A stretch of 64,000 nt of DNA from Kappaphycus alvarezii (taxonomy: Eukaryota > Rhodophyta > Florideophyceae > Gigartinales > Solieriaceae). A program made the position numbers and the translations under genes. Below are positions 7,048-38,526 of the stretch, one piece after another. Under the pieces are notes generated by a model. The model made no database searches. It saw only the letters and a program-made list of their open reading frames with translations, and was not told where the DNA came from. The stretch spans positions 1,302,001 through 1,366,000 of the forward strand of contig NADL03000623.1 in NCBI GenBank assembly GCA_002205965.3. The letters are read 5' to 3'. The first letter of the stretch is position 1; the number at the start of each line of letters is the position of its first letter.

Positions 7048-7062
7048 GTACAGTATACAGTA
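7048..7062. promoter_or_regulatory. GTAC palindrome cluster
   Basis: The stretch reads GTACAGTATACAGTA, two overlapping near-palindromes of the family found upstream of most genes in this window. It lies about 400 bases upstream of the EF-hand start codon. Confidence 0.3.
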
Positions 7063-7190
7063 TGTTGTTTCCGCTTGTACTGTAGTTGCACGTTTTCCGA
7101 TACGTGAATTAACATCCACTCCGCTTGACAGTACGGACAATCTGGGATCTTACAGTATCGGGAATCTGTGCGAACGTTTGTGGGATAACC

Positions 7191-7204
7191 CAGTACAGTA
7201 CTGC
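7191..7204. promoter_or_regulatory. GTAC palindrome
   Basis: The stretch reads CAGTACAGTACTGC, which contains a nearly perfect dyad around GTAC. It lies about 260 bases upstream of the EF-hand start codon. Confidence 0.3.
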
Positions 7205-7357
7205 ACACGTAAAGTAATATCAATTACAGTAGCGAGGAGATTTTGGGGTTATTTAAACGCCTGGAAGATGTGGTCGGTAGTATCCATGCCGCTAGTGCGA
7301 ATTACAGTAGTAATCGCGCCTTTTGAATTTCGCCGAGTGCAGTTCCCGCCTACTGAG

Positions 7358-7382
7358 CAGTACTGTACAAACTGTACAGTAA
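7358..7382. promoter_or_regulatory. Double GTAC palindrome near the EF-hand gene start
   Basis: Two copies, CAGTACTGTACA and ACTGTACAGTA, lie side by side about 80 bases before the ATG at 7461. This is the closest placement to a start codon in the window and fits a core promoter or transcription-factor site. Function is inferred from position only. Confidence 0.45.
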
Positions 7383-7460
7383 CCGGAAGGGACCACTGCT
7401 GAGCGTGTTTATTTCCCAAAGCCAATTTCTCCAATACGCTACAAAGAAAACGTGTCTTCA

Positions 7461-8139
7461 ATGCCCAACGCCTCTTCTCCCGACAAGTCGCCACTCCCAT
7501 CTACAAGTCGTCTGGAACCAACTCGTCAAATCAGTCAGCACTGCACAGCAGGCATCGCTGCAAACTTCATCGCATCATTCCCGATGACAGACTCCATCAC
7601 AAATGACGAACGACGCGAGCTCAAGCTTTCTTTTGATCTTTTCGACGACAACAACACCGGTAAGCTCACATCATCCCTTTGAAACCTTTCATCACAAACA
7701 CTTGCCATCTCCACTCCATCACCCTAACCTCTCTCCCTGCTATTTCATCGGCCCCCATGATCCAGGTGTGGTATCGGCCAGCCAGATTGGCATGATTATC
7801 CGCGCTTGCGGTGAAAACCCCTCTGAGGCTCGGATTGCTGCTATCGTCGAAAAGGCCAATGAAAAAGATGGCACCGTTAGCTTTGACGACTTTCTTGAAA
7901 TTATCATTGACCTTCGTACGAATGAAAAGCGAATCACCGTTTCTGACTTGGAGGCCGCATTCAAGGTATTCGACACAAATAACACAGGAACAATTCACAA
8001 GGATGAGCTGCAACGCGTCCTCACAAACTTGGGCGAAAAACTGAATCAACAGGAGATGGCCGAATTTTTCAAATTGGCACAACCTAGTCCTGACGGAGCC
8101 GTGGACTATGAGCGACTGGCCAAGGTCCTTATTCCCTGA
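7461..8139 (+). CDS. EF-hand calcium-binding protein, centrin/calmodulin-like (one intron)
   Basis: The CDS joins 7461-7659 and 7766-8139 and gives about 190 residues. The intron at 7660-7765 has GT and AG ends, and the split codon restores Gly in the first loop. I chose the ATG at 7461; an in-frame GTG nine bases earlier is unlikely. After a non-conserved tail of about 45 residues come four EF-hand positions. Loop 1 is DDNNTGVVSASQ, with Gln where the last ligand should be Glu. Loop 2 has lost its first ligand (ANEKDGTVSFDD). Loop 3 (DTNNTGTIHKDE) is canonical. Loop 4 (QPSPDGAVDYER) is degenerate. The four-hand layout with an N-terminal tail suits the centrin/calmodulin superfamily, but a myosin-light-chain-like role is also possible. 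It is convergent with the Obg gene, 191 bases away. Confidence 0.85.
7660..7765 (+). other. Spliceosomal intron in the EF-hand gene
   Basis: The 106-base intron begins GTAAGC and ends CCAG. Removing it joins the two frames in the middle of the first EF-hand loop, which is what makes this call firm. Confidence 0.85.
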
Positions 8140-8330
8140 TCGTCACATCTTGACATACTCCTCTCCTTGTACATACTACGCTTCCGCAGCATTGTGCCAG
8201 CGCATGAAAACTCGCTAACGTAAACGATACAGCATTTCCGTGGCTCAGTTTTCTTTCATTCTGCCAAAAGGCACTGGCAATGGCCACCCTTCAGTCGGGG
8301 GGAATCACGTCACGCCACTATTTCCACCAC

Positions 8331-9587
8331 CTATCGTCCTTGGTGTCCATGTGTTTCGTCCTGCGACCCATCATCAATGTCTTTCAAGACACCCGCCGAT
8401 AGGAATCTCACCACAGCCTCCGTTCCGGTCCCATGCTTTGCGGAGAGCGGGAAAATGGGCACCAAGCTCCCGACAGAATCCAGCAAGATGTGCAAGTTGT
8501 CATAAGACGACTGTCCAACGTCCATTTTGTTTGCCGCAATGCAACACATCCGCTCCGATAATCCCTCCTCGTGCATCTCCAATTCGTGTCTCAAAACCTC
8601 CCAATCCTCCACTACCTGTCCTGTCGACACAGACAAGTCCAACACATACACCAACACTTTTGTCCTTTCAATATGCCGCAAAAATTCATGTCCCAATCCT
8701 CTATTCTCATGCGCACCCTCTATCAATCCTGGTATGTCGGCCACCGTGAGTCTGCAATCCTTCAACCGCTCTTCATCCGTGATGGCTGATACCACTCCAA
8801 TGTGCGGGCGGAGAGTTGTAAACGGATAACACGCTACCTTTGGTTTCGCTCTTGATATTGCTCGCAGCAATGTACTTTTCCCTGCATTCGGAAATCCCAC
8901 AAGACCCACATCAGCGATCGTCTTCATCTCAAGCTCTACACGACGCCGTTCTCCTGAGCCACCAGGCTCAGCTCTTTGTGGCGACCGATTCTGAGATGAC
9001 TTAAATGCCGAGTTGCCACGTCCCCCGGCCCCTCCTCGCGCGAGAAGTGCCTGCTGTCCCGCCCGGCTCAGTTCGGCAATAGTCACTGCCTCGCCACGAT
9101 CCACGCTTTTGCCATCATCACAAGGTTCTATCACCGTGAGAAATTTCATTTCAAAAGGCTCTTCATCCACAACATCCTGGAGTTCACGGATTACAGTCCC
9201 AGGGGGAACATTGATAACGAGATCGGCGCCTTGCCTCCCTCGCCGGTTATCAGATCGTCCCGGGGTGCCATGCGCAGCCTGGAATGTTGTTGATGACATG
9301 CGAAGCGAGTTGCAGTCAGTGCTTGCCTCAACCCAGATAGAACCGCCGGTACCGCCATGCCCGCCATCTGGTGGCGCTATTTCCTGATGTGGTCCAGAAC
9401 CGAATGAAACGCAGCCCGGACCACCATCTCCAGCCTTCAACGTGAGAACAGTGCGGTCTACGAAGGATCGGCGGGATCCTGAGTACCCTCTAGAGTGACG
9501 GACTGGCGCGAGGCACAGCAAATTACGAGGCCGCGGGCGTGCTCGAAGAGACGTACAGAGGAAGGAAAACCGAGGTCCAGGCCTCAT
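8331..9587 (-). CDS. Obg-family GTPase, probably mitochondrial (MTG2/GTPBP5/ObgM type)
   Basis: This is an intact 418-residue frame from an ATG. Residues 1-40 are rich in Arg, Ser and Leu and almost free of acids, as in a mitochondrial presequence. The Obg fold follows at about 42-225, with its glycine-rich strands (AGDGGPGCVSF, PDGGHGGTGG, ARGGAGGRGN). The G domain has the P-loop GFPNAGKST (231-239), switch I YPFTT (254-258), DIPG (284-287), NKMD (353-356) and SAK (382-384). Obg proteins assist late assembly of the large ribosomal subunit; with this presequence the mitochondrial ribosome is the likely client, though plastid targeting cannot be excluded. It is divergent from the SpoU methyltransferase gene, whose ATG is 320 bases away. 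No GTAC palindrome lies in that shared promoter. Confidence 0.93.
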   Translation of the reverse strand: MRPGPRFSFLCTSLRARPRPRNLLCLAPVRHSRGYSGSRRSFVDRTVLTLKAGDGGPGCVSFGSGPHQEIAPPDGGHGGTGGSIWVEASTDCNSLRMSSTTFQAAHGTPGRSDNRRGRQGADLVINVPPGTVIRELQDVVDEEPFEMKFLTVIEPCDDGKSVDRGEAVTIAELSRAGQQALLARGGAGGRGNSAFKSSQNRSPQRAEPGGSGERRRVELEMKTIADVGLVGFPNAGKSTLLRAISRAKPKVACYPFTTLRPHIGVVSAITDEERLKDCRLTVADIPGLIEGAHENRGLGHEFLRHIERTKVLVYVLDLSVSTGQVVEDWEVLRHELEMHEEGLSERMCCIAANKMDVGQSSYDNLHILLDSVGSLVPIFPLSAKHGTGTEAVVRFLSAGVLKDIDDGSQDETHGHQGR

Positions 9588-9907
9588 TGGCGCTCAACAA
9601 GTTTGGTGGGGTTGTCTGAATTCCTGCGCAATACCCGGTGTCGAGAGGGCATAGTTGTCAGATCAGATCGAATTTTTGCGACCGATAACTGCTGGTTGAG
9701 AGAATCACGGACCTGTGGAATTTTTCTTAAAGGAGTACTCACCGCTCAGGACTTTGCGTTGCAATCAGTAGGCTCTGTTTAGAGCAGATGAGTGCTTCTG
9801 CGCTCATTTAATGCATATTTTGGCTAATTTTTTGAGCTGATGCTCAACCGGCGATTTTGCGGTACCTTGCCAGCGACCCAGTAGCTCTAGCGGCAATAAA
9901 GAGCTTG
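9588..9907. promoter_or_regulatory. Divergent promoter region between Obg and SpoU genes
   Basis: The 320 bases between two opposite start codons must hold both promoters. I see no TATA-like box that stands out. None of the GTAC palindromes found upstream of most other genes here is present, so these two genes are the exceptions. Confidence 0.5.
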
Positions 9908-11014
9908 ATGAAGCCACCACGAGAGATGCCCTCTACCGCACGCACGATGCCACTTTCTTCGAACTATCCGGCTCCAAAATGCAAAATCAGCACATTAACA
10001 ACTCTATGTTTTGCCGCCCAAGTACTTGTTCCCCATCAAAAGATTGTCAGGTTTAAGCAAGCTCGGCAGTCAACAAGGCGCATGCGGGCAACGTCGCAGC
10101 AACAAACCTACATTCACAGTTTGAAAAATCAACGCATCAAGGATACAAGGGCACTGCTGCGTAGGCGGCAAAGGGAAAGGGAGGGTAAGATTTTACTGGA
10201 AGGACAACGCTTGATTTCAGACGCCATCCATGCGGGAGCTCTACCACTCGATTTTTTCTGTACCAGAGAGGCGCTTGAAAGAAGTGAATCTGTAAGGGCA
10301 TTAAGGGCAGACATTGCGAGTGCCGGCTCACGTGAGTTTCTTGTCACGGAAAGTGTCATCGAGTCGTTTTCCGACACCTCAACGCCACAGGTACGTCCAA
10401 GTTGAGAGAGTGGAAGGAGCTTTCTTCCAAACATGCGGCATAGTTGGTCACCAGCAGAGGAAGGCGACTGATTGAGATAATCTAATGTTCTTTTCTGTTC
10501 ATCGCAGGGCCTTGTGGCAGTGTTTCAGCGCCCACTCTGTAATCTTCCCGCACTATCCACCCTTACCTTGGTATGTGATGACATTAGAGATCCTGGGAAT
10601 CTGGGAACTTTGTTGCGCTCAGCTGCTGGTGCAGGTGTACAGGCAGTGGCTCTTACCGCTGGCTGTGCGGATGTATGGAGTCTCAAGGCCCTAAGGGCAG
10701 GTATGGGAGCTCAGTTCCGTCTACCATCCCAAAGTAATATGACATGGACGCAGATTCAAGACTACATTCAAGCTAGTGGAGGCCGTATCCGGGTTGCAGA
10801 GGGAACTTCAAGTACCCTCTACACAAATGTAGATTGGTCGGTGCCATGCGCGCTCATTATTGGCTCAGAAGCTGCAGGGCCAAGCGAGGAGGCGTTTAAT
10901 GCCGCAGATGAAAAGATTGCTATCCCATTAGAGGCCGGGGTAGAGAGCTTGAACGCAGCGATGGCAGGGGCAGTTATTCTATTTGAGGCATCCAGGCAAA
11001 GGCGAGGCAAATAG
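9908..11014 (+). CDS. SpoU/TrmH-family RNA 2'-O-ribose methyltransferase (one intron)
   Basis: The CDS joins 9908-10390 and 10508-11014 and gives about 329 residues. The first in-frame ATG is at 9908. Its first 60 residues are basic, poor in acids and may be an organelle transit peptide. Next comes the SpoU substrate-binding domain (REREGKILLEGQRLISDAI, about residues 90-110). The catalytic SPOUT domain has all three motifs: motif 1 NLGTLLRSAAGAG, motif 2 IIGSEAAGPSEE and motif 3 SLNAAMAGAVILFEASRQR near the C-terminus. SpoU enzymes methylate the 2'-OH of a nucleotide in rRNA or tRNA using SAM. The sequence best suits an organelle large-subunit rRNA enzyme such as RlmB or MRM types, but the exact target cannot be read from it. 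The gene ends 103 bases from the convergent JmjC gene. Confidence 0.9.
10391..10507 (+). other. Spliceosomal intron in the SpoU gene
   Basis: The 117-base intron begins GTACGT and ends GCAG. It lies exactly between codons (CAG then GGC), and both exons share one frame class, which supports the join. Confidence 0.85.
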
Positions 11015-11117
11015 AATAACAATACAAGACGTAACTTGCATAAGAAGTACCTTTTACAGCTTTAGATGTGCTCGCAAAGGGGCAGTTTTCACGTCAACTT
11101 TCGCGAAGACATACAGT

Positions 11118-12292
11118 TTAAAACCAGAAGTTTACTGAGATTGACGCGGTGCGTGCCTTGACCCAGTGCCAATGCCCCGCGGGAATGTAAAGCGCGTCCC
11201 CAGGCATGAGCCGTACAAGCTGGCCCCGAACTGCAGAAAAAGACGGGTGGACTTTAAGGTCCGGGTTTTCTACATTGACCGGGATATGTTCATTGGTGAG
11301 GGAGGTGAGTTGCGATACAACAAATTACTCTGGTCTGGCGAGATCAACACCACCAGCTTTTGCCCCACGACTTGCACGAGGAGATTGTCGGCAGAATCGA
11401 AATGAAGTTTGGAACCGCTACCAGCAGTCCCCATCCAGACGTTTGTCAAATCAGCACGTTCCTTACCCACGACCAACATGTACTCTGGCTGCACCACATC
11501 TTCTTCCAACTGCGGGACGTAATCGAACAAGGGGTGTTGGGCCATATAAACGCTTTCCTTTCCCTCTGCTTGCCGCATCTTCCCCAGTACGTCTGTAAGT
11601 AGGCAAAATTTTTCTTCTATTCCATTGCCATCGGGGCTCAATTCCACAGGCACAGTCCGGTGTCCATACCTACTATCTAGATAGCCGTCTTTGCACCAAT
11701 TCTTGGTTGCCGACCAAACTGAAGCACACCCTCGAATAACCACCGGTCGATCGCTTTCAAAATAAGAGCGAAAGTCTTCAACAGAGAATTCTGAGGCCTG
11801 AAACTCGGCACATTTCTCCGAAAGGGAATCAGGTAACGACACGGCCGTCTTGACCTGAATTTGGCCAAGTGGCATAGAAGGTTTGCCTAAATTTCGACGC
11901 GATACAACGTGAGGCTCTATCTCCTCTACCAGTTGCCTGACAGCAAGGGCGGTGGGCATTCCGAACATTACCATTGCAATGTCTGCAGCAGCAACGGCCT
12001 TTCGAAAATTGTGTTCATTTGCGAAACGGGCAGCCGCGGCTGCCGACGCGACAGCTAGCGCCTTGGAACAAGCGGGCAGGTCGTTGGTGGCGTGTGCAAT
12101 AATTTTCTCATCAGCGTCTGAAGGCAGAGAAAGAACATGACGAGCTATCCGTGAGCGTCCTTCAAGTCGAAGTTCGGCTGCAATTGACGTTTTGACGTGT
12201 TGGACCAGGGCGTTTACAGGGGATATGGAGGAAGCATATTGGTTTCCTGGGATGTTTGTGGGAGGAATTGGGGTTTTGGCAGAGGGTGTCAT
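11118..12292 (-). CDS. JmjC-domain (cupin-8, JMJD5-like) dioxygenase, frame broken once
   Basis: The main frame starts at the ATG at 12292 and encodes 340 residues to a stop at 11270. The real C-terminus continues in another frame to the stop at 11118-11120, giving about 391 residues. The N-terminal 150 residues are helical, alanine-rich and not recognised. The JmjC part has RPVVIRGCASVW (182-193), the VPVE strand (214-217), and the iron ligands HFD at 297-299. After the frame change come NEHIPVNVENPD, the typical GDALYIPAGHWHWV with the distal His, and a final SVNFWF. These are Fe(II)/2-oxoglutarate enzymes that hydroxylate or demethylate proteins; the JMJD5/JMJD7 group is the closest in pattern. 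One missing base near 11295-11310, in a C-rich run, would join the two frames. An intron cannot do it. Confidence 0.85.
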
Positions 12293-13314
12293 TCCTGTCC
12301 ACGTTGGGTGTCAAGGCGGCGAGAGGACTTGAAAAAGTTAACGTAGGAAAGGGTTGTGTCAGGCCATAATTTCGTATTGACGAGGGAAAAAGGTGAATCC
12401 TGGGACACTGCGCGGGACTAGTTTGCCAATGTCGACGCGTCCAAGCTCACCAGAACGTACAGTACGTTATGTACAGTACAGTAAACGGCGGGTACAATGC
12501 AGAAGAAGAAGTTTACTGCATTCAGTATCCACTGGTGACTGCGCACGCCCCAACTATACGGCCAAGACCTAACCGGATGTATCCTTCGTACCTCGTCGTC
12601 CATGCGCATCGGGGCTCGTGAGAGGATGGCTTGAGCGGTGGATGACCAATAATGTGCAGTATTCTGCAAAACTGTGCAATGAATATAGCGTTGTACTGCG
12701 CAGTCTGGACTTGAATAAACGTGTTTCACTTTATAAAAGTGGATTATGTTACAAAGGAAACAACCATCGACAACTTACACCAATTTAATCCCGCAATATT
12801 GCGAGGGGAGAGGCAATTCGGTGCATCATTCCACGCCACGCCACGTCAAAAAGATGCCAACCGCTGCTGATTGCCACCAGCTGCTATGCAGCAGAGCAAT
12901 ACGGCCTCAAAGCACAACCTGCAATGTCATCCAATGTGTTCCACGAGTTACATTTGGCTCAGATGCAGTGAGACGCTATACCACTCCTTTCCATTCCCAA
13001 GTCTTAGTGACGATGCAATCAATGGAACACCCATCCATCGATTGCTCAACGCAGACCACACCACCTGATATACCAACACTGGTTGGCTCAGTCTTCTTTC
13101 AAATCCCCTCGCCATCTTTGCCACGTGCCCTGGTCATCCCCATGTGCCTGACTGATAACCCAATTTGATCAGCATACTTGCAAAAGCAAGGCTCTTCCCG
13201 ACACAACCTGAAACAGTGACAGCTGGCATGTCCTCCCTATCCTAATCATGATCACTAACTTCACCCCAGCGTCATCGCGCCTATGCCCTCGCTACTTTTC
13301 GGTTCTTCCGCCGT
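12293..13314. other. Region between JmjC and membrane-protein genes
   Basis: The left part must hold the JmjC promoter, including the palindrome cluster at 12456-12484. The right part contains a 140-codon plus-strand open frame (12746-13168) with no recognisable domain, and minus-strand frames with fragments that look faintly protein-like but contain several stops. I cannot support a gene here. It may be the 3' region of the membrane-protein gene or a degraded gene. Confidence 0.35.
12456..12484. promoter_or_regulatory. GTAC palindrome cluster upstream of the JmjC gene
   Basis: Three overlapping units (GTACAGTACGTTATGTAC, then AGTACAGTAA) lie about 165-190 bases upstream of the JmjC ATG, which is read on the minus strand. 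The role is inferred from position. Confidence 0.4.
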
Positions 13315-14346
13315 TCACCCTCCCAAATCTAATACGGTTTCATCCATTCGCGGGTCTCCCATCAAAAACCCTCGTGCAGTGCTTTCAAGACATCGATTGA
13401 TAACATTCACCTGCTCCATTGTACGCCCGGTTGCCCTTCCTTTTTTGTTCACATATACCACCGCGTCCGCCGCAACACGTCGAGCAACCCAGCCAATAGG
13501 CCTCTCATCGTCGGCACCGACATTCTTCGCCTGCCATTCCACTGGTAATCCACTCCATTTTTCGAAAAATGGTTCAAAGTTTACCTCAATATGCCCGTTT
13601 CTGACAGCCCGTGCCCCCGTTTTGGAAGGGAGGGACACATTGCCCCAGCCCAAAACGCCCTGATTGCTTCTCTCGTTACTCCCGAGGGGACGAAACGGCA
13701 AGGCCCTCATGACGACTTCGTAAAAACGTTTGTACGCTGTTTCTACGCTGGCCTGATCCACGTTCATGTATTCGACGGTGCCAAAAATATCGAGCTTATC
13801 CGAGTGCAGACCCTCTTCAACCAGTCTAACCTCCCATGTGCAGGCCTTTTCGTGAAAGGTATCCGGGGCTTCTTTGACGCCGCGCCAATAATGTTGACCA
13901 GGGGGAGCCTTGCGAGCTCCCCTCCTAATGACCAGCTCCCAATCGTCCTTGCGCCTACAATTGTCCGTCTTGTCTGTACTAAAGCCGATTCTCATGGTGC
14001 GCAATTCCCTCAAGGCCAGGGCGACCTGGAAGAGACGGCTTTCTTGAGATTCAGGGCGGTTCATTCGCCAGGAAAGCCACAACCAGCGTCCAAGATAAAC
14101 CACGCTACCGACGAGAAATTCGCGGGGACCGGGTGAAAGAAAGATTCCCTCTCCTATGAAGCGGAAGGCGGAATAAGCGATGGAAAGGGCTTGGGTGAGG
14201 AAGAGGAGGGCATTGTGAAAAGGGGAGCGGCCCCAGACTAAGCGAGAAGGGGCGAGGCCGCCGACGTAAAGAGAAAGAATAAGAAGCACGAGGGAACCCA
14301 GGTCTGCCCAGGCGGCAATGTGTTCGAAGGTCTCCTGGGACAGCAT
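13315..14346 (-). CDS. Membrane-anchored protein of unknown function
   Basis: The intact frame is 343 residues from the ATG at 14346; an in-frame TTG 14 codons upstream is less likely. The N-terminal third is hydrophobic, with three probable membrane helices: LGSLVLLILSLYVGGLA (about 16-32), ALLFLTQALSIAYSAF (about 46-61) and FLVGSVVYLGRWLWLSW (about 77-93). The rest is soluble and mixed basic/acidic, with no motif I recognise. Clear codon structure without stops, a position inside a housekeeping gene island and a palindrome cluster upstream all argue that it is a real gene. The C-terminal domain would face one side of a membrane; which membrane cannot be told. No function is proposed. Confidence 0.7.
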   Translation of the reverse strand: MLSQETFEHIAAWADLGSLVLLILSLYVGGLAPSRLVWGRSPFHNALLFLTQALSIAYSAFRFIGEGIFLSPGPREFLVGSVVYLGRWLWLSWRMNRPESQESRLFQVALALRELRTMRIGFSTDKTDNCRRKDDWELVIRRGARKAPPGQHYWRGVKEAPDTFHEKACTWEVRLVEEGLHSDKLDIFGTVEYMNVDQASVETAYKRFYEVVMRALPFRPLGSNERSNQGVLGWGNVSLPSKTGARAVRNGHIEVNFEPFFEKWSGLPVEWQAKNVGADDERPIGWVARRVAADAVVYVNKKGRATGRTMEQVNVINRCLESTARGFLMGDPRMDETVLDLGG

Positions 14347-14800
14347 TCGGGACAAGCGGCAAGCGTGTGTAAGAATTTGCGACTGCAAAATGCGCGTGAC
14401 CTAGTCGAGGAATGTTGGGTGACAAGTGCAATGTATGTGCAGAATGTGTACGAGGGCGAGAGCAGCTGAGGTGAGAGGTAAGGTCGCTCAGGAAAGGGGG
14501 CCGTGGATGGGGCTAGTGAAACATTCAGGTGTAGAGTAGCTGAAAGGTAGCGGAGCGTTTCGCGGATGATTGGCAAAAGCAGGAGAAGAAGCGCAGCAAC
14601 ATGGATGACCTTGCAATCTTGTTGCAGTCTTTGAGATGTGGGGTTGTGTACGTCCCCACATATCTCGCAAGCAATAAATGCGAGGGTCCAACCGGAGTAT
14701 GGACTTGGAAGGTGGACGGAGCATTGCATTGGAAGACCTGAATTGATGGCCTGATGCTTTTGTACTGCCGTAGGAACGTAGGAACACACTCTTCACCCGC

Positions 14801-14841
14801 TGTACCGTACCGTACTGTACTGTACTGTACAGTACAGTACA
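14801..14841. promoter_or_regulatory. Long GTAC palindrome array upstream of the membrane-protein gene
   Basis: This is the longest array in the window: about 40 bases of repeated GTACCGTACCGTACTGTAC and CTGTACAGTAC units, giving a long perfect dyad in its centre. It lies about 455 bases upstream of the minus-strand ATG at 14346. Confidence 0.4.
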
Positions 14842-15109
14842 ATATATGAAAAATTCTTTTTCCAAGTAATCTTACTCCCCTCCCTCAAGCCAACGCCGAA
14901 ATTACCATTCTACAGTCAGTCATAATTGTCACAATCCAGGTCATCAATTCCCCGAAAAAAAAGTGCTGAAACCCAGAGGGCTGTTGGAGGACGGCAGACG
15001 TCTGCATTCTGTCAAGAAACCTGTTGGGAGCCCAGACAACAGACAGTCTTGCATGTGAATGTAACCACTATCGCAATTATATTAGAATGACACTAGCCTT
15101 TCATTCGGG

Positions 15110-15480
15110 TCAACGAGACGGGCTGGGATTTTTAAGCACCACAACATATGAGAGACAAGGGGCGACGGGAGACGGTGTAGGCCGAGAGTTGCAGACCGAG
15201 GGACGAGAGGGTGGTAGCGAGATGATGGCATTCGTTGGAGGCATGTATACCGCGTCGGGTGGCAAACGAGGCGAGGCGGTTCTTCCAAGGGCTTCCAGAG
15301 CTGGCTCGCCCATTCCCCCGTGCGTGTCCACCCCAACATGGAAGAGCTGCGCGTGTATCGTAGCGTACAAGCCGGCATAGTATGTCCTCTTCTGGGCATT
15401 GATGGGGAGGTTGACGCCCGGTTGAGTGTTGCATGTCCGGAGGGGCCCTCGCTTTATTAATTTGAGTTTTATGAATCAAT
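15110..15480 (-). pseudogene. Coding-like fragment, possibly a retroelement C-terminus
   Basis: A minus-strand frame without ATG is open from a TGA near 15480 to a stop near 15110. It contains the conserved-looking run NLPINAQKRTYYAGLYATIH and then HVGVDTHGGMGEPALEAL. This kind of sequence resembles the extreme C-terminal part of reverse transcriptase ORFs from algal non-LTR elements, but I give that from memory of the pattern and cannot verify it. The end is low-complexity (Ser/Pro). It has no start codon and no upstream partner, so it is a fragment. Confidence 0.3.
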
Positions 15481-15741
15481 GGAATACCGTTCCGGCAAAG
15501 TCATGACCAGACATGTTCCGCCGGGAACAAAGGCTCACTGTAACGTGAAGTACATGATAGGCTGTTGATTGCGCAGGTCGTGCTCATTCATGTGTTTCCC
15601 CGATCTTGCTGTTGCAACGACCGATGGGTTCGGCCTGGCCAGCGAGCAATGACACGTGTTTCCATGTGCGACGTCGCCATGAATCCCCCCGCCCCCATTT
15701 TTCCTGTTCTCTTTACAGGTATTCCATTTCGCCCAATTCAT

Positions 15742-15761
15742 TGTACTGCACAGTGTTGTAC
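15742..15761. promoter_or_regulatory. Degenerate GTAC palindrome upstream of aspartate kinase
   Basis: The stretch TGTACTGCACAGTGTTGTAC is a looser member of the palindrome family. It lies about 180 bases upstream of the probable ATG at 15939 and about 315 bases upstream of the first in-frame ATG at 16076. Confidence 0.3.
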
Positions 15762-16075
15762 CTCGGAAAAAAGCACCATTCGAACCGCTTCTATCCACAC
15801 CTGCGCCAGCACAGCGTCGCCTTCGACATCCGCATCCTCCCATCTCTTCTCCATTTTGTCATCCAGCACCCATTCTTCACTCGCCGCCTCGTCTCACACT
15901 TTCCCCGTCGCTCGAATCATTCCACACCTTTTTTCAACATGCATGCCGTTGCTTTTGCCGCCGCCCCGCCCTCTCATCACGCTCCCACTTTACATCCGCT
16001 GTCCGCACTCATCCCACCGCCTTGCGCCTCTCTCCACTGCGTACGCCAATACGACCTGCAGTGCCACCTTTGTGC

Positions 16076-17497: not shown

Positions 17498-17812
17498 ATT
17501 AGTTTGCCTGTGGACACCGCGTGGCCACTGGATATCTTGGGGCATTAGACGCGAAAACAGTTTTTCCCCTTTCCTTTCCCAAGTGACGAGACGGGTTTCC
17601 ATGGCAGAACCTGGCTGCCATTGTGGTCCACCGAGGGGCTACGGGGTTTGTGAATATATTAGTCAGCCATCAGCTAGGAAACCTTAACAATGAAGCCAAA
17701 TTATTCTTATCCCCTTGTTCGGAGGTCGGTGAGGGCAATGACGCACTACGCGGTCTCCTGCCCAATTGACAGTAGTCAAAATCAGTTTACACGCATGGTC
17801 GCAACTCAGTAA

Positions 17813-19877: not shown

Positions 19878-19915
19878 TACAGTACAGTAAGTACTGGACT
19901 GTACAGTACAGTCCA
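19878..19915. promoter_or_regulatory. GTAC palindrome array upstream of PEX5
   Basis: Units TACAGTACAGTA and GGACTGTACAGTACAGTCC lie about 135-170 bases upstream of the PEX5 ATG. The second unit is a perfect dyad of about 15 bases with GGACTG arms. Another array follows at 19984-20002. Confidence 0.45.
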
Positions 19916-19983
19916 GAATCTACTGTAATTGTTTTATTTCGATGGATTTTTTGGTTGAGCGTCCAGACCTACTGGACTGTATG

Positions 19984-20002
19984 ATACTGTACTGTACAGT
20001 AC
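19984..20002. promoter_or_regulatory. Second GTAC palindrome upstream of PEX5
   Basis: The stretch ATACTGTACTGTACAGTAC lies about 240-260 bases upstream of the PEX5 ATG. A TGGACTGTA half-site sits just before it, matching the arm of the first array. Confidence 0.4.
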
Positions 20003-20228: not shown

Positions 20229-20258
20229 TACTGTAAGCAAGGTCCCGTGCTTACAGTA
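20229..20258. repeat. Perfect 11-bp inverted repeat with 8-base loop
   Basis: TACTGTAAGCA and TGCTTACAGTA are exact reverse complements separated by eight bases. The arms share TACTGTA with the GTAC palindromes but lack their centre. Confidence 0.5.
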
Positions 20259-23696: not shown

Positions 23697-24860
23697 CCAC
23701 AGGGGGTGTCAAAACTATACTCGCAGGGACCATTATGGCCAGTCATTAGCCTTATAAAGGACTAAATTCAGAAATAAACACAGCAAAATCAATGAACTAA
23801 CCCTTCTGCTGCTCCCCAAGACCGACAAGGATGCCTCAAAAGGCATTTTTGTCACCACTTGAGCAAGGTAAGGTGTAGAAGTGGGCGGAAGATAAACGAT
23901 CCAACAGAGAGATCACAAAACGCATAAACTCACCGGAAAAAGTCGTCCGCACGTGTCTCAAAGACCCCGAAGGCTACAACGAAAAACATAAAGGAGGACT
24001 TCTCCCAAAAGTGTCACTAAAAGACCCCCGTCATCTCCGACGGGGAGCATTAAAAGGCCAAAATCAGCAGAAACAATAAGAAAAAAGCTTAAATTGCCCA
24101 CAAGCAAAAGAAGAACATACGACTACCTTTCCCAGGCCCTTTTTGCAATACCAGAAAGCAAAAAAGGCCCATATTTTGAAGCAATGTCACATTACAGCCA
24201 GCCTTTCTTGAGATCGGGAGAAAGGGAGCTGAAAATGGTCCAGTAGGGTCGCTTTATCTTCTTGGTTGAAGAAAATCAATCTAGACGGACCTTTTTGTCT
24301 GCAATACTACTGGAACTATTTACGGCAAGAGGAAATCACTCTTTTTTCAAGACAAGGTAGAGGAGGGTCGGTCATGATTTGGGGCGCGTTCTCTGAGAAC
24401 GGAGTTTCTGCTCCTTGCATTTTGAGTAGAAAGCAAAACTCGGAGAAGTAAGTGAAGACCCTGGAGGAATTCTTGCTATCATTTGTGGAAGAGAAACACC
24501 AGAATGTATTTGTATTTAAGCAGAACAACATCTCCATGCATATGTCATCCCTGCGGAGGAGTTGTTTTATGAGCAAAAATATTAATGTAATGAAATGGCT
24601 TGCTAAAAGTCCTGATTTAAACCCAATAGAATATGTGTGGGGGATACTTGCGCCTTCAGTTTATGGTGAGTTGAGGCAGTATTCGAATCTAAGGGATGCC
24701 CACAGGCGTCAGAGTTGGAATACATATCATTAAGCGCCTTTAAGTTAATGAGAAGTTGTTTAAAAAGCCAGTGCGTCTCTGGTTTTGACACCCCCTGTTT
24801 TAAGTGAATGAGAAGTTGTTTTAAAAGCCAGTGCATCTCTGGTTTTGACACCTCCTGTGG
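23697..24860 (+). mobile_element. Tc1/mariner element with both terminal inverted repeats, inactivated
   Basis: The left end CCACAGGGGGTGTCAAAACT (23697-23716) and the right end GGTTTTGACACCTCCTGTGG (24841-24860) are inverted copies with two mismatches, and each is flanked by TA, the target this superfamily duplicates. The 1164-bp interior holds a broken transposase on the plus strand. A helix-turn-helix part is near 23860-23985 (SNREITKRINSPEKVVRTCL, then KDPEGYNEKHKGG). The catalytic part at 24266-24733 runs through GGSVMIWGAFSENG, a stop at 24449-24451, and ends with SPDLNPIEYVWG, where the last acidic residue survives. The first catalytic Asp is lost and the second has become Asn (FKQNNIS). 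The final 60 bases are duplicated in tandem. Confidence 0.92.
24741..24860 (+). repeat. 60-bp tandem duplication of the mariner 3' end
   Basis: 24741-24800 and 24801-24860 are near-identical 60-base units, each ending in the GGTTTTGACACC terminal repeat. The element therefore carries two stacked copies of its right terminus. Confidence 0.85.
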
Positions 24861-27934: not shown

Positions 27935-27958
27935 AGTATGTACTTCGCTCCGACTTGT
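27935..27958. repeat. Right arm of the 24-bp perfect inverted repeat
   Basis: This arm is the exact reverse complement of 26331-26354 and lies about 1.6 kb away. It may be one end of a transposon that took in the mariner copy, or of a non-autonomous element. Confidence 0.65.
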
Positions 27959-28099
27959 CGAAGAGGATCTCTACTCATTGCTTCTCGAGTGTTCCGTCGC
28001 GCGAGGTAATCGCAGCAGTTTATAAGCTGACAACTCTGTCTCCGTAAAAAATTCGGCGCACATCGAGCAATCTTCCTTTAAAATTCGACCCAGCTCCCA

Positions 28100-31000: not shown

Positions 31001-31245
31001 CTCAAACTTTACAAACATGCCTCTCATTCGACGACTTCTGCACACAAGACCCACGCATTCGCATGTCGTCAGGCTTCAGGCCCCATCCGACAAGCCCCTG
31101 GCCATGAGTTTGAACCTTCCTGGAAAACCACGACTAGAAGCATTCTTATCACGCTCCTACCACCTCGACCACAAGGCTGCCCGTTCCCTCCAAGAAGAGA
31201 TCACCCATCACTTCCACCCCTCCTGCCTCTCCCTGCCCAGGTAGG
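28100..31245 (+). mobile_element. Non-LTR-type reverse transcriptase element (YADD), decayed
   Basis: The plus strand is GC- and C-rich. The 5' kilobase has overlapping proline-rich open frames. From 29160 a long frame contains ALLNGSANKAAQAL and LRSLHPTPF, a typical domain before the polymerase of algal elements. The same frame continues with RPITIGLAIRRLVGRL, GIPSAAEAIVQ, a TAG at 30189-30191 and then VDAQNAFHSVERSEI with the first catalytic Asp. After a frame change come QQGSPLGMLLLAIAL and the catalytic WYADDGTL with YADD at 30451-30462. A thumb-like end (QATLPFRHWDLGLTP) lies near 30920-30980. Stops and frame changes make it inactive. No endonuclease domain was identified. The family is inferred from motifs. 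Confidence 0.75.
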
Positions 31246-32300
31246 GCAGCGCTGGAAGCCGCCCAAAGGTTGACCATTGTGCGCCACATCTCCCCGGAGG
31301 TGTATAGGTCGGTGGAAGGCAACGGCAATGTCGAGTAGGGGGCAGAACCGTGGACGAGGCAGTAGAGGCCAGACGAGAAAAAAGATGCGAAGAGGAGCCG
31401 GTAGAGTCCGATGAGTGTAGCCTTGAAAGTAACTATACTGTTCCCCTCTCCTCGACACCGTGGGCCATCACACAAAAACCAGTTGCCGCCGCCCCCTCAT
31501 TCCTCCGCCTCTCAACCTCCAACCACAGCCACCGATCCCCAAGCAGCCCTCCTCTCGCCCTCCCCATCCGCCAGATGGCCCCTACCTGCTCCTCCCCCGG
31601 TGACCAATGGCAAGATATCCCTGTCCACCCACAATCCCCATCGGAAGTGCCCATCCCCAACACCATGTGAGGCCTGTACTCTTGGATCTCAAAAGCTGGG
31701 CGCATCACCGACCTCAAATGGTCCCTGCTCTCATCGGTCCTCAGCAATGACAGAAGACTCCTTCGCAGCTACTCCAAGCACGGAGGGCAAGAATCGGCCA
31801 TAGTTCAAATAGTCGCAGACACCGACTGCTGTCCCGCTCAAACAAAAATGGCGGCTGCAGGCATACGCCGCCTCGCTACCCCATACAACCCTCTGGACCT
31901 CCACCCCCACGACCAACGCTCGGGATAGCACAAGAACAGGCCCTTCTACAACATCTTTCAACCGTCGTTCCTTCTGGCGGGGCAGTGCAGAGCTCTCCTT
32001 CAATGCAATTACACGCCTGTTCTTTCACAACTCCCTCCACTCCGTCGACTCAGCTTTTCACGCACAAATGGCGCGACTTCGCTCTGTTCATCCCCGACCT
32101 CTCCCTCCAGGTCCCCCAACACCGTCACCAAACCCTCCACACACGCCCTGCCGTGCCCCTACATCCCCCGTACCACGGACCGCTTCCCCTCACTAAGTCC
32201 CTTTCCCTTCCAAACGCCACCACAATACACCCCACGGAACGGAGGACGCCGACACAACCATGACAGCAGCGAACAATCTACCCACCCTCACATCGGCGGC
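31246..32300 (+). other. Region between the two retroelements, ORF1-like or 3' tail
   Basis: The same C-rich plus-strand bias continues with short proline/serine/threonine-rich open frames (31411-31803, 31985-32263). They may be the ORF1 of the following LINE or the tail of the preceding element. I recognise no zinc knuckle, RNase H or other domain. Confidence 0.3.
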
Positions 32301-34354
32301 CCCGACATTCACCATTAAAACTGTATCCTGGAACGTTTGCAGCTCCTTGACTACTCTCTCCCGATAGCCTTCTTACCGAGACTCGATGTGATGCATATCC
32401 GTATCTCACTCATCTTTGGCCACAAAGCACCTTGTTTCAAGCTTCAAACTCGCTCTTCGCCACCTTCTCCACTCTCCCGCCCTCCATCACATCATTCTTG
32501 GCGACCTCACGAACAGCACTGCAGCTGGGACTCTCACACAAATGCACGGGGACGCGCCATTGTTACAGTCGTTCACCCCATCCGTTACAATGCGTATGCG
32601 CCACCTTCGTCTACCTTCCAAGCCCGCGACCGCTTGGGCTCTAGCAAGCCGGATATCGTTATCGCATCCGTACCTCACCTCTACTCTCCAGCCTGGCTTC
32701 AACGGCGCCTCAGTTCATTTGCCAATCCTGGTAACAGTCCCCATGTCCGTGCCCCCTCCCTCGCCCCGAGGGATCACGAAATCCCTACTGGCTTACCCAG
32801 CAAATAGAGCACGGGTAACCCAGGTCTACAAAGCTACCCTCCCCGCAATTATCTCCTTCCTGGATAACTGCACCCTGACATCCGCCCATGGACTGTGCAC
32901 ATACGCCACCTCCGACATTCTTCAACCCTAGCAAGACATGGCGTCACGAAAACCCCCACGCCACGAGCTGTTTTGGAACCCCGTATTGGAGGCCTTGGTG
33001 TGCAAGCGCGCCGCCGCATTCCGTCGAGCCTGCCGTGCCCAACAACCCCTACAGGAATTTCAACGACTCCGCTCAGTAGTCCGCAGCGAAATACGCCCTG
33101 AGAAGCGACTTTTTAACTGTCGCACTGCACTCCTTCCCGAGCCTGGCCCCTCCTCAGCTCCATTCCAAGCAATTTCCACAGATCGTCGTAACGCAGAATG
33201 CAGAACAGCAGACGTATGTCGCTCAGGGACCGAACTCGCCCCGCACTCCTTTACCAAGTACATGCAGACGGTTCATGACCAAAACGAACCTCCACTCAGC
33301 CTCCCTCCATTCAAGCCCCCCCTTTCCGCGCTGCTCTCGAAATATGCATTTGTCAGGCACCCACAGGCCGGGCCGTTGGTACGGACTCAATCCACATCGA
33401 AATGCTGAAAGCCACTCCCCGTCTCTCCTCATCCCTCCTGCTCTCCAGATGGAGTGCAGAATGACGAATAACTCAGTATCCCCGGCAATAGTCCCAGGAC
33501 TTCTTATACCGACGTACAAGAAGGGCAAACGACAGAGCCCCGCAAACTGCCTCCACCTATTTCTTCTTTCCCACTGCGGGAAAGCAGTCGAAGCAGCGCT
33601 ATCAATGTTAATCCAGCAAGACCCGCGCAGCGACCCCTCTCAGTACGGCTTTCAACGAAAAAATGGTCCCCTGCACACTCTCATTGGAGTCGATGAAGCC
33701 ACTCGATCAGGGCAGGGAACGCTCGGTGACCTCAACATGTCAAAAACCTGCGATCGTGTTGACCGCCACCCACTCGTATCGGGCTGGTACTATTTAGGGC
33801 TGCCCCTCCGTCGCATGATAGCTGCTTCGCTTCTCCATACACTGGCAGTACCAAGGGAGACGTGACTCGGTTCCAGACCCAGATGACCCTAGGTTTTGTA
33901 CACGGGTGCCCGCTCTCTCCAACCCTCTTCCTCATAGACATCAACAGCCTGGCCACTGCAGTATCTAATAGCACTGCACGACGCTCACACCCTGTGCCGT
34001 GCAAACTTTCGCAGATGACGTCCTCCTACACACCACATCCTTCCTGTTTCTGCAGGACTTCCTCTCCGTCTGCCAAGGATCCGCCAAGGATGGGCAACCA
34101 TCCGGAACATGCAAAGGAACCGAGAGAAATACTTGATCATGCTGCGGATCCTCCCCAAAGACACCCCTTTGCTTCTTCGAAGGCAAATCAACACAGCGGG
34201 CCTCCTCCGCAATGAATCTAACCTTCTGGTCAACACAGACTGCCCGTCGCCCGTATCCGTCAGGTCTCTCGGGTTATTACCTGAAATGTTTAGTCGATCA
34301 CGTGGACGGTCACAGCGATTTACGTTGTCTGGTGCGGTCAGCGCCAAACTGTAA
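32300..34354 (+). mobile_element. LINE with AP-type endonuclease and FADD reverse transcriptase, decayed
   Basis: The frame-shifted plus-strand remains give two domains. The endonuclease spans about 32315-32810: TIKTVSWNV at its start, HHIILGDL near 32480-32505, STFQARDRLGSSKPDIVIAS in the next frame, and HLPILVTVP near 32715-32745. The polymerase spans about 33470-34210: IVPGLLIPTYKKGK, QYGFQRKNGPLHTLIG, DLNMSKTCDRVDRHPLV (the first catalytic region), GCPLSPTLFLIDINSLA and FADDVLLHTTSF with FADD at 34008-34019. The order endonuclease then polymerase is that of Jockey/I/CR1-type LINEs. It differs from the preceding YADD element, so two lineages sit head to tail. Several stops and frame changes are present, and no poly-A tail was seen. 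Confidence 0.8.
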
Positions 34355-34495
34355 GATCAGGTGAGCCCTTATGATGCACACGTCCAAAAAATAGTCAAAA
34401 GTATAAAGTACTTTACAAGCCAGCAAAAAGTACAGCTCGTTGAATACAGAACATGTACAGGCTGAAACTGTCTAACTGTGGGCCATACAGGAACT

Positions 34496-34518
34496 TACTG
34501 TACAGTATAGTACAGTAA
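34496..34518. promoter_or_regulatory. GTAC palindrome cluster upstream of the RING ligase gene
   Basis: TACTGTACAGTA, the perfect 12-base palindrome, is followed at once by TAGTACAGTA. The cluster lies about 125-145 bases upstream of the ATG at 34641, directly beyond the end of the LINE. Confidence 0.45.
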
Positions 34519-34640
34519 GTGCAACAGTATGGCAGTTTGCGTAGAGATGTACAACCTGTTGCCCATGTTTGCGTGTGGGTTAGTTACCCAAAGCAGCTCT
34601 TACCTCGCCCCTCCTCGCCACCCTTTCTTGCTCCCCAACC

Positions 34641-35754
34641 ATGGGTGCCGCCTCCTCACAAGAACCGCCTCCTCCAACCTCCGCTCCTAACCGTCCTGCG
34701 TTAGGACCTCGTCCCTCCAATCCCTATCTTCCCCCCACCCAACACCAATATTCACGACAGCCGCAACGTCCCATTGAATACCGTCCCCCCGTCCAACAAT
34801 CCTCCATTGTCCGCAACACCATTGCCCTTGCAAAGTCTTCCATTTCTTTCCTACCCTGCCCTCTTAACCCAAACTCACTTCTCCTCACTTTTCAATTCAA
34901 TGCAGACGTTCCCGGCGCCATTTCCGTCTATTATCATGCAAAGGAAATCATCCTTCGCAACGGTAACACAAAGCACTCCCCAGTCGTCAAGCTGAGTTAC
35001 CTCACTCGAAACGATGATCCACCCTCCGACACAACAGTCGTGAGTTCCTCGACCGCACTGAGTGGACCGCCGGTCAAGACGAAATTCAGACCCGGCCACA
35101 AGCAGACCTACACCCAGAAACCAGGCCGCGGACTTGACACTCGTCAGTACTCCCCCAGACTTTCGCTACAAGCAAGGCCAGGATCGATACCCTTTAGTCA
35201 TTCGTTTGGAAGCCTACTACCCGCCGACTGGCCAACTCCGTCCCACATGAGAGTGACCAACCATGTCACCTTTGCAGAGCTTATTCCCGTTGACAATGCA
35301 GACGTACCATATGCTGTCAATGTGATAGCCCAACAAGTGCTAGTAGGGGGCACTGTGCATCGTGTCATGGACTTGTACGGCATTGGCGCGCCACAGTGAC
35401 CGCAAAGGAGAAAGAGGAGAAGGCTGGCGGTTGGAGGGACACGAGTGTGTCATTTGTTTAACCGAAAATTGTAACACTGCTGTCCTCCCATGTAATCATT
35501 TTTGTTTATGCGAGGATTGCGCAAGAGTTTTATGTTCAGAGACAGACTACAATCGACGAAAATGTCCAGTTTGTCGTGGACCATTGGAAGGTTTGATGAG
35601 GATCATTCCTGGTGAGGGTGGAAGGGGTGAAAGTGAGGGAAGCAGTAGTATAGAGGGAGGTCCAAGGGCTGGCAGTGAGGGTGCGACACTCAGGGACGAC
35701 AGAGAGAGTAGAGACGATGCGGTTGAAGACGCGTGGGAAGGGCAGGGGAGGTGA
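34641..35754 (+). CDS. MGRN1/LOG2-type RING E3 ubiquitin ligase, frame broken
   Basis: The gene starts at ATG 34641 in a good context (ACCATGG). The N-terminus MGAASSQ is an N-myristoylation signal, as in plant LOG2/LUL proteins, which are membrane-linked ligases. A proline-rich stretch (about 8-55) precedes the family's beta-rich domain (NTIALAKSSISFLP, LLTFQFNADVPGAISVYYHA). Near 35150 the frame shifts by one at a CCCCC run; YPLVIRLEAYYPP is read in that frame. Near 35245 it returns to the first frame for NHVTFAELIPV and VMDLYGIGAP. After about 35395 the RING is read in a third block: ECVICL, LPCNHFCLCEDCA, CPVCR, a complete C3HC4 set. An acidic low-complexity tail ends at 35754. All conserved blocks are present, so either the sequence has small errors or the gene is a very young pseudogene. 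Confidence 0.85.
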
Positions 35755-36696
35755 GCAGAGGGTTGTGAAGAGCAACTCGCAAGTTGTCGTCAGAATAGGG
35801 GCGTCTGCCGCAGGCGCGGCGGAGGCGGGAGAACAACCCTCGGAAGGAAATACCGTAGGTGTCCATAGACGCGTTGCGTAATATGATTTCAGTGTGTTGT
35901 TTAGGCTTGGTTTGCGGTTACATGATATCACGCCACTGATGACCATTAGAGTTAGAGGTTGGACAGATTTTCTGATTTCTGAGCCCTAGTTAACGTGTTC
36001 CTTTACGGCATGGACCAAGTTGCGTCAACGTTGGATGATAACTTGCACATTGCGCTAAAGGTTATGGTACACCCTGTATTTTTACCCGCAGTGTGCAAAA
36101 GAGCCTCGAAAACCCCGCAGCTGTCCTCATACCACCGCTGCAGTCCTATGTAACCGAGTTTCGAGCTGTTTCATGCAATCGTAATAGGACGCTGAACTGT
36201 CTACGTGCTCCTGCCTCCTCACCCACCTCTAACTTCTGCCATCAGTTACTCGGAACTGCATCCCAACACCAACACAGAAACCAGTTTTCTAGTCGTGCGC
36301 TTCGTAATTACGCAACCAGAGAGTTTCCCGCTGACCTCACCGCACTATGCCACATTCAAGTGCATGTATAATGCTTGATATAATTAAATGACGATGTTGA
36401 TGCCCCCTCACAATATCCGTCTGTTGAAGGCACATATGATTTGCGCCTAGTTATCCTTACTCTTCCTCTCAAGCTCGGCAATGAGCTCAAGAGTTCCATT
36501 TTGAGGCGCTTTCATAGTGTCCGCCGGAACTGCGAAATGAATGAGCAATTGGATTTGAAACATGAATCCCATTCATGACGCATATGTTACCCGGTTACCC
36601 GGTAAATGCTCGCATGCCATACTTTGGCACATTCCGAAACATAACCTTAGCTATCTCAAACTGCAACATATTCCCTGCCCAGGAGCCCCTGATCTT
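35755..36696. other. Convergent 3' region between RING ligase and PurF genes
   Basis: No gene is supported. The 92-codon open frame at 36093-36371 shows no domain. The region must hold both 3' untranslated parts. Confidence 0.4.
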
Positions 36697-38177
36697 TCAG
36701 TACCTCGCGGTTAGTGGGCGAGTGTCTTTGACTGCGGGCAGAACGGGATAATTACCAGAGAAACAGGCATCACAAAAAGTAACAGCTTCGTCTCCAAGAA
36801 ACTGATGCATGGCCCCAACGGCAAGAACGACAATGAATCTGCCCCCACATACTCACAGGCTTCCTCGTCACTCATGAGATAACTCAACAGCTTTTCTCTG
36901 TCAGGTGTGTCGACACCGTAAAAGCAACCGCCCGTGATTGGCGGGCATGCAATCCGTAAATGCACCTCTCGTGCGCCCGCCTCTCGCATCATTTTGACAA
37001 TCTTCTTTGATGTGGTCCCTCTTACTATGGAGTCATCTACAACAACCACACTCTTTCCCTTGATTAACGCTTCCACTGGCGCCAACTTCAACCTCACCCC
37101 AATATCTCTTGCAACTTGAGTCGGTTGTATAAAAGTTCTTCCCACGTAATGACTCCTTATAATAGCTTGTTGATATGGCACCCCGCTTGCCGACGCATAA
37201 CCCAATGCCGCTGGAACTCCACTCTCCGGCACGGGTACAACCGCATCCATGCCGCTGAGTTTCTCCTCTTTTGCCAACAGTTCTCCAAAGCGAAATCGAC
37301 TCATATATACGGACCTTCCAAACACGACGGAACTTGGTTTGCTAAAATAAACATGCTCAAAAACACAGGCCCTACGTCGAACACTTGGAAAAGGAAACTC
37401 ATGCCGTACTCGGCCCTCGCGATCAACTACCACCATCTCCCCAGGTTCCACTTCCCTGACGAATTGAGCATCAACAATATCCAATGCGCAGCTCTCTGAT
37501 GCAAACAAAATGGCCTTTCCAGATTGTCCCTCAACAGTGAGCTCACCCATAACTAAAGGGCGAAACCCGTATGGATCCCTTACTGCAATCAATTCATCCT
37601 GCGTTAAAATAACGACTGAGAAAGCACCTTCTACTCGACTCAGAGCATCTGCTGCTTTCCGCTCTACCCCAGCAGAACTACCCACGCTGGTAGCCATGAG
37701 ATGCAAGACGACCTCGGTATCACTGCTCGTCGCGAAAATGCTACCCCTCAACTCTAATTCCTCCCTCAAAACATCTGCATTTGTCAAATTGCCATTATGA
37801 GCAATGGCGACTTGACCCTCACGAAATATAGCTCGGAACGGTTGCACGTTTCTGACAGACTTTTCACCTGACGTTGAATATCGGTTATGAGCAATAGCCA
37901 TAGTGCCTGGCAAGGACTCATCGGTGAGCGCATTTCCAAACACTTCCGAGACGAGACCCAAGCCTTTGTGTTCACATAGACCGGTGCGGGTATTACCGGA
38001 GGTTACCATTCCTGCGCCCTCCTGACCACGATGTTGGAGAGCATGAAGCGCATAGTAGGCAACTGCAGCGGCGGAGGGGTGGCCCCAGACAGCTACTATC
38101 CCGCATTCCTCATGTAATTTGTCGGCGCATTCTTCACTGAGTGTGTCGGAAGCATGGAGTGAGGAAGTACATGACAA
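36697..38177 (-). CDS. purF: Amidophosphoribosyltransferase (PurF), frame broken near the C-terminus
   Basis: This enzyme moves the amide of glutamine to PRPP, the first step of purine synthesis. The glutaminase domain begins at the Cys nucleophile (EECGIVAVWG, Cys about residue 25), with LQHRGQEGAGMV, RYSTSG and AHNGNLTN. The phosphoribosyltransferase domain has the PRPP loop VVVVDDSIVRGTT (377-389). Cysteines at about 271 and 418 and a FCDAC pair near the end match the iron-sulphur ligands of the Bacillus/plant type. The main frame runs past the break to 36711 with wrong residues. The true end (AMHQFLGDEAVTFCDACFSG, then NYPVLPAVKDTRPLTARY) is in the next frame and stops at 36697-36699; one missing G in a GGGG run explains it. 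The start is unresolved: the frame is open upstream without an ATG, and a Met at 38338 in another frame begins a transit-like peptide. Confidence 0.93.
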
Positions 38178-38434
38178 GCGACATAGGGAAGGAGAGGAGC
38201 GAGTGCGTCGAGGAGTTGAGCAGGTACGTGGCTGCAGAATAGACTTAGAATGAGAAGTTCGAGTTGGTACAAAGGTGTGGTGATGGGGATAATTGGGATG
38301 AGGGGAATGAACGCAGAGACTGGCATTGGTTCTATCATCTGAGGAGGGCTCCGTGCTCGCAGACGACAGAGGCTTTGGTGGTGAAGGTGATTCTCCGCGG
38401 TAAGAACTCCCTTGGGATCACATTCAAACCTTGT

Positions 38435-38526
38435 CTGTACGGTACGATACGGTAGTGCACTGTACAGTACAGTACATCCGATAATGCTGGAGGACCTTCG
38501 CTCTTCCAGGAATGTACAGTACTGTT
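38435..38526. promoter_or_regulatory. GTAC palindrome clusters upstream of PurF
   Basis: A long cluster (38435-38476: CTGTACGGTACGATACGG and then GTGCACTGTACAGTACAGTA) and a single unit (38513-38526: TGTACAGTACTGTT) lie about 100-350 bases upstream of the unresolved PurF start. Confidence 0.45.

Follow-up and report, generated by a model that had tools for sequence, protein, structure and literature searches.

Upstream clusters of TACWGTA in the red alga Kappaphycus alvarezii as probable self-stacking footprints of Tc1-type transposon excision

In a 64,000-nucleotide stretch of the genome of the red alga Kappaphycus alvarezii (C619:1302001-1366000; referred to as the window) a short palindromic word recurs upstream of genes. 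The original prediction, made from the letters of this stretch, described the word as the self-complementary 12-mer TACTGTACAGTA and as a possible promoter element. Combining counts in the window, in loci selected independently of the word and in the whole assembly (336,021,096 bases in 884 contigs), we identify the 7-mer TACWGTA (W, A or T) as the unit of this family and suggest, with a probability of about 0.82, that its copies are excision footprints of Tc1-type transposons, which would be biased to upstream DNA and would stack upon themselves by re-use of their own target sites.

Abundance and upstream placement of TACWGTA

The motif family is real, as judged from two controls. With up to two mismatches, TACTGTACAGTA occurs 34 times in the window compared to a mean of 1.50 in shuffled sequence (standard deviation 1.15; the maximum in 100 shuffles was 4). 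The original prediction also proposed a genome-wide count; this count, and with it the genome-wide background, refers to the exact 12-mer, which has 9195 copies in the assembly against 26 for the reversed string. The 12-mer is, however, not the core element that it had been taken for. It consists of two overlapping TACWGTA units with unlike centres, and the true core is TACWGTA, i.e. TACAGTA or TACTGTA, which occurs alone or overlapping in 5-bp steps. In the window this pair ranks first among all 7-mers (54 copies vs 9.6 expected).

To look beyond the window we used kinase loci, which were picked via protein family and independently of the motif. A list of 40 was drawn down a ranking of 134 kinase matches, passing over equal-scoring copies and some matches without a domain start, and its first half gave the 20 loci used. 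Counts of units, stacking and control palindromes cover all 20 loci (200 kb, three duplicate pairs included); counts of A and T centres, isolated flanks, array models, 12-mer density and placement cover the 17 loci that remain without the duplicates L006, L017, L021, L025 and L026. Around the 20 kinase genes, TACWGTA occurs 327 times against 45 expected, and units with W centres outnumber those with S (C or G) centres by 327 to 46. Likewise, in a census of TANNNTA words in 234 kb, from which L001-L004 (fetched by motif) and L006, L017 and L021 were excluded, TACWGTA is the one large outlier (324 vs 26), the second-ranked word being TACSGTA (51 vs 18). On the gene strand the two centres are near-equal in number, with 141 TACAGTA and 129 TACTGTA. 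On a coarse scale, the exact 12-mer shows a modest contrast between the genome (27.4 per Mb), the 17 kinase loci (47.1 per Mb; 8 copies in 170 kb) and the window (62.5 per Mb; 4 copies). Multiplying the 9195 genomic 12-mers by the ratio of TACWGTA to 12-mer, which is 270:8 at the 17 kinase loci and 54:4 in the window, we arrive, by rough extrapolation, at a possible genomic total of the order of 100,000-300,000 copies of TACWGTA.

The enrichment upstream of genes holds both in the window and at the kinase loci. Six of the nine recognised genes of the window have TACWGTA within 500 bp upstream, compared to a mean of 1.61 in 5000 circular shifts (p=0.0084), and the same number have it within 1000 bp (mean 2.90, p=0.039), and none of the 54 copies falls within the 9.5 kb of listed coding sequence. 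The claim that the motif stands before each recognised gene, with the promoter between Obg and SpoU as the only exception, is therefore correct for these six but not for Obg, SpoU and aspartate kinase; the last, which shows 93% identity to an unnamed protein and 75% to its Gracilaria domingensis counterpart, has no TACWGTA within 1 kb upstream. At the 17 kinase loci the density of TACWGTA rises from 1.16 per kb between -6000 and -4000 and 1.41 between -4000 and -2000 to 3.18 between -2000 and -1000, peaks at 6.71 between -1000 and -500, and declines to 2.35 between -500 and -250 and to 0.94 in the last 250 bp; in the kinase coding sequences it is 0.14 per kb (3 copies in 21.4 kb). In terms of genes, 3 of the 17 have a copy within 500 bp upstream, 14 within 1 kb and 16 within 2 kb. 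Nine other 7-bp palindromes do not exceed 0.80 per kb in any bin, compared to 7.8 for TACWGTA (20 loci).

Neighbouring units keep a strict spacing. Stacked units overlap by two bases, and at the 20 kinase loci 79 neighbours lie at a distance of 5 bp whereas no other spacing up to 60 bp accounts for more than 12. Single units nevertheless make up 216 of the 279 arrays.

Proposed Tc1-type excision and its alternatives

We propose that these patterns could arise from the following cycle: (i) Tc1/mariner-type transposons with the ends CAG...CTG would insert at TA, (ii) at each end the transposase would cut one strand three bases into the element, leaving CAG beside each TA, and (iii) repair would make the middle base of the gap A or T, as the three-base overhangs pair except at this base. 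The product would be TA-C(A/T)G-TA, which is 5 bp longer than the original TA. One TA would become two in each cycle, and because each scar holds two TAs instead of one, a later insertion can re-use it; repeated re-use would give arrays with a 5-bp step whose centres are A or T, among them TACTGTACAGTA. Most insertions would fall 0.25-2 kb upstream of genes, perhaps owing to open chromatin, and scars in coding sequence would shift the frame and be lost by selection.

Elements with suitable ends are present in the genome. A DDE_3 profile search of the assembly gave at least 150 matches (1153 candidates). Two of the elements examined, L043 (242-1834) and L044 (260-1811), have CAG at either end, a TA on each side and stop-free frames of 365 and 372 amino acids, respectively, and ends of this type predict exactly TACWGTA scars. 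Altogether we encountered the end types CAG/CGG, CAG/CAG, CAC/CAC and CCA/CCA, with DDE_3 in the families tested and with lengths of 1164 bp (the copy in the window), 1534 bp (L034), 1553 bp (L041 and L042), 1593 bp (L043) and 1552 bp (L044). Only CAG-ended elements predict TACWGTA at both repair outcomes; CAC and CCA ends do not. We infer from sequence that these Tc1 elements made the scars, and some of them may be active today.

The CAG/CGG family was recognised in the duplicate loci L005 and L006, where one copy carries the transposon start, TA followed by CAGTGCTGGTAAAAATCTTGGG, and the other has TACGGTA. A 250-base query from this element matched 33 places, and 23 of these matches start at one of the first three bases of the query, the third of which is the T of the flanking TA. 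In the 14 copies read (L027-L040) the left end is CAG in eight (L027-L031, L033, L034 and L040) and the right end is CGG in five (L032, L034, L035, L038 and L039), the remaining ends being changed, cut or outside the stretch. Frames of L038 match DDE_3 (1.9e-12) and HTH_Tnp_Tc3_1 (2.5e-5) above the cut-off and HTH_Tnp_Tc3_2 (3.1e-5) below it. TACWGTA crowds around this family: the left flanks of 12 copies, the borders of which are approximate and in L035 were set by hand, contain 14 units in 3000 bp within 250 bp of the element, 6 in 3000 bp between 250 and 500 bp, and, farther out, 1 in about 12 kb. If L027, identical with the kinase locus L005, is excluded, the corresponding counts are 11 in 2750 bp, 2 in 2750 bp and 1 in about 10.9 kb.

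How individual units age can be followed at the five kinase loci with a second copy in the assembly (L005/L006, L010/L017, L020/L021, L008/L025 and L023/L026), which were compared in both directions. The longest alignments of these pairs are 93.6-97.1% identical, and the pairs represent either divergent haplotypes that the assembly has not merged or recent duplications. Aligned TACWGTA are intact in 74 of 152 cases (0.487) compared to 0.525 for 7-mers no more than 100 bp away and 0.658 for all non-coding 7-mers in the alignments, suggesting that the single TACWGTA is without visible constraint and lies in fast-changing DNA. One-letter variants away from intact sites are in excess, with 21.6 per transition variant and 9.0 per transversion variant, as expected if old sites decay by ordinary mutation. 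A TA in one copy corresponds to TACAGTA in the other at individual places of L020, L023 and L026, and in L008 next to an array.

These comparisons bear on the main rival explanation, namely that an abundant and probably dimeric transcription factor binds TACWGTA, with homotypic clusters upstream of most genes and stacking as a means of multiple binding. The palindromic form, the presence of a site within 2 kb upstream at 16 of the 17 kinase loci, the upstream placement at six of nine window genes and the absence from the listed coding sequence of the window would all fit such a site. Yet the duplicates show no conservation above the flanks, and decay is transition-biased at all positions without the position-specific tolerance of a binding site. 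In addition, the 45 isolated units have no flank preference beyond TA, the word is identical to a transposon footprint, and it crowds around Tc1 copies. The lack of conservation is not decisive, because individual factor sites can turn over fast, but taken together we regard a factor site as unlikely. In line with this, TACWGTA was rejected as a conserved control element at the kinase loci, being no better conserved than its flanks, and the core promoter or factor site envisaged in the original prediction is disfavoured also by the scarcity of the word in the last 250 bp before the start. GTAC is the core of copper/SBP-box elements in green algae and plants, and stacked TACWGTA units contain GTAC; in contrast to such elements, however, only 3 of the 45 isolated units have G-TA-C flanks, compared to 9.2% of plain TAs. 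An apparent GTAC target preference in the flanks of 192 singletons vanished once units with decayed neighbours were excluded, which left the 45 sites. In searches of the open PMC literature we found no mention of the 12-mer and, judged by title, no paper on a red-algal GTAC promoter motif.

Alternatively, TACWGTA could be no excision scar but a site at which transposons prefer to land, or the terminal part of small derivatives of them. Transposons do enter existing units, as L041 is inserted in an array of TACAGTA and L042 in a TACAGTA, and L031 directly adjoins TACWGTA, observations that also fit the re-use of scars in the excision cycle. Small inverted pairs bounded by TACWGTA likewise exist, one of them at 20229-20258 of the window, where TACTGTAAGCA...TGCTTACAGTA stands between two units. 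Against this explanation, which we consider very improbable, the majority of the copies examined occupy other TAs, no inner sequence is common to the isolated units, scans of the loci for shared terminal repeats returned mostly array artefacts, and a landing preference alone does not create the word. Of the possibilities offered in the original prediction, a tiny mobile palindrome with a preference for open chromatin came closest: mobility does appear to be involved, but the palindrome itself is immobile and is best explained as a Tc1-like scar. A repeat common to L009, L016 and L018 and starting TTTACTGTGGTAGATATG was discarded as a candidate element, as the similarity continues across its border.

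Stacking provides a further means to evaluate the excision cycle. If units are placed by random re-use of TA within 250-bp blocks upstream of the 17 genes, 19.2 +- 2.7 arrays of at least two units are obtained (the maximum of 200 runs was 27) compared to 26 observed, whereas with whole 2.5-kb blocks the model yields 10.7 +- 2.9 arrays (maximum 18). Given that the 250-bp model comes near the observed count, re-use of TA would explain much of the stacking. Across the five pairs, clean indels flanked by 10 exactly matching bp occur 4, 3, 14, 3, 3, 3, 2, 8 and 2 times for sizes of 3 to 11 bp, and none has 12 bp; 9 of the 14 indels of 5 bp and 2 of the 8 indels of 10 bp are exact TACNG units.

Several observations weigh against excision as the origin of the word. 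The observed arrays are somewhat more numerous than the random re-use model gives. Neighbours with like centres exceed those with unlike centres by 55 to 24 (20 loci), and by 20 to 15 in exact two-unit arrays (17 loci), which makes some slippage likely; moreover, most of the 5-bp changes fall in arrays, where slippage could also act. At isolated sites the other copy is empty in 2 of 32 scorable cases (58 examined) compared to 2 of 92 (171 examined) for other TANNNTA words, a difference that rests on few cases (p=0.27). The word found opposite the transposon in L005/L006 is TACGGTA, whereas the predicted scar is TACAGTA or TACCGTA, so that this case fits only with a later change. The CAG/CGG family predicts TACAGTA and TACCGTA in equal numbers and, with W centres dominating over S centres by 327 to 46, cannot be the main source. 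Two of the four copies cut from the DDE_3 list, L041 and L042, have CAC ends and belong to one family. Finally, the 222-259 bp of flank on each side of L043 and L044 are free of TACWGTA. As a side observation, TACACTA/TAGTGTA is mildly enriched at the 20 kinase loci (38 vs 15) and could be the scar of the CAC-ended family.

That slippage alone spread a pentanucleotide microsatellite (TACAG)n without any transposon would account for the 5-bp arrays, the excess of like centres and the 5- and 10-bp indels within arrays, but we give this idea hardly any credence, because slippage cannot be the start of the single units that make up 216 of 279 arrays, neighbours often differ in their centres (24 of 79 A/T pairs) and the crowding near Tc1 copies is left unexplained.

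Clusters and mobile elements in the window

Most of the clusters reported in the original prediction contain TACWGTA. Nine units lie at 7049-7381 upstream of an EF-hand gene (start 7603), three, two of them stacked, at 12458-12483 upstream of a JmjC/Cupin_8 gene (start 12292, minus strand), and five in a stacked (TACNG)n array at 14803-14844 upstream of a membrane-protein frame (start 14346, minus strand). Further downstream, seven units including two stacked groups are found at 19878-20001 upstream of a PEX5-like TPR gene (start 19745, minus strand), three at 34496-34517 upstream of a frame at 34641, and three, two of them stacked, at 38463-38521 upstream of purF (38009, minus strand). The supposed cluster at 15742-15761 before the aspartate kinase gene, on the other hand, is just a two-mismatch variant, TACTGCACAGTG at 15744-15755, which lacks TACWGTA and is perhaps a decayed array.

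Three strong copies had been listed as standing apart from recognised genes. That at 25.1 kb (GTGTACAGTGTACAC) contains no TACWGTA. The copy at 26.36 kb is present and adjoins the inverted end of a repeat at about 26.3-27.96 kb. That at 48.84 kb is also present; it belongs to a group of five units, three of them stacked, at 48768-48903, which is without a recognised gene and within a TA-flanked, inverted-ended unit at 48770-52653. This unit is enclosed by inverted repeats of about 1 kb (48748-49751 and 51662-52675) that are 71% alike. Inverted structures also occur outside the window: in L010, positions 4125-4955 of the gene-oriented strand form an 830-bp foldback, with 83% identity between its arms, just upstream of the kinase gene.

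The window itself carries a Tc1-like element of 1164 bp (23697-24860, plus strand) with TA on both sides and the terminal inverted repeat CCACAGGGGGTGTC. Words of the SPDLNPIE type were read in it by eye, and no family search passed; as its ends are CCA, it was ruled out as a source of TACWGTA. A remnant of another Tc1-like end, CACTGCGGGTAAAAATACAGGGTGTACC, lies at about 36065-36095 on the minus strand, and a frame at 63150-63557 with a match to DDE_Tnp_4 (9.9e-08) appears to be a piece of a transposase. At about 29.9 kb on the plus strand, a C-rich stretch contains reverse-transcriptase-like words (RTLRPITIGLAIRRLVGRLTMKR) read by eye.

Significance and comparison with known footprints

We lean, if only slightly, towards a broader proposal in which self-stacking Tc1 excision has been a main source of new upstream sequence in this genome. 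With TACWGTA genome-wide of the order of 100,000-300,000 copies and each scar turning one target into two, the upstream DNA of most genes would carry a slowly decaying record of insertion-excision cycles. If so, the most over-represented word in the sampled red-algal DNA would be a scar instead of a signal, and a motif search in genomes of this kind would yield a spurious promoter element in front of many genes. By the same token, scars would count excisions per locus, so that past transposon traffic, and perhaps also open chromatin, could be gauged in a lineage for which functional data are sparse. CAG-ended elements with stop-free frames would qualify as candidate active DNA transposons of red algae, and stacking would represent a simple route by which a cut-and-paste element enriches its own targets.

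The footprint itself has been described before. TACAGTA and TACTGTA are the consensus excision footprints of Sleeping Beauty, a Tc1/mariner transposon (PMC4378557, PMC3432063), for which the footprint CAG and the target TA are also given in a review (PMC8151067). A related element from zebrafish leaves behind 0-3 bp, which is described as resembling Sleeping Beauty and Frog Prince (PMC7913693), and Pogo-type relatives have been reported in red algae (PMC7386202). Within the available text of the open PMC literature, both footprint words appear together only in PMC4378557 and PMC3432063, and we found there no description of a build-up of footprints on the scale seen here or of their stacking.

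The word in K. alvarezii shares with the Sleeping Beauty footprint the same seven letters, the A/T centre and the TA target, and the putative source elements likewise have CAG ends and Tc1-type transposase domains. It differs from that footprint in its natural genome-wide build-up, its 5-bp stacks and its concentration upstream of genes; moreover, the host is a red alga in which the presumed scars are known from the genome sequence and a three-base cut is assumed by analogy. Thus, the footprint is already known, and its scale and stacking may be new.

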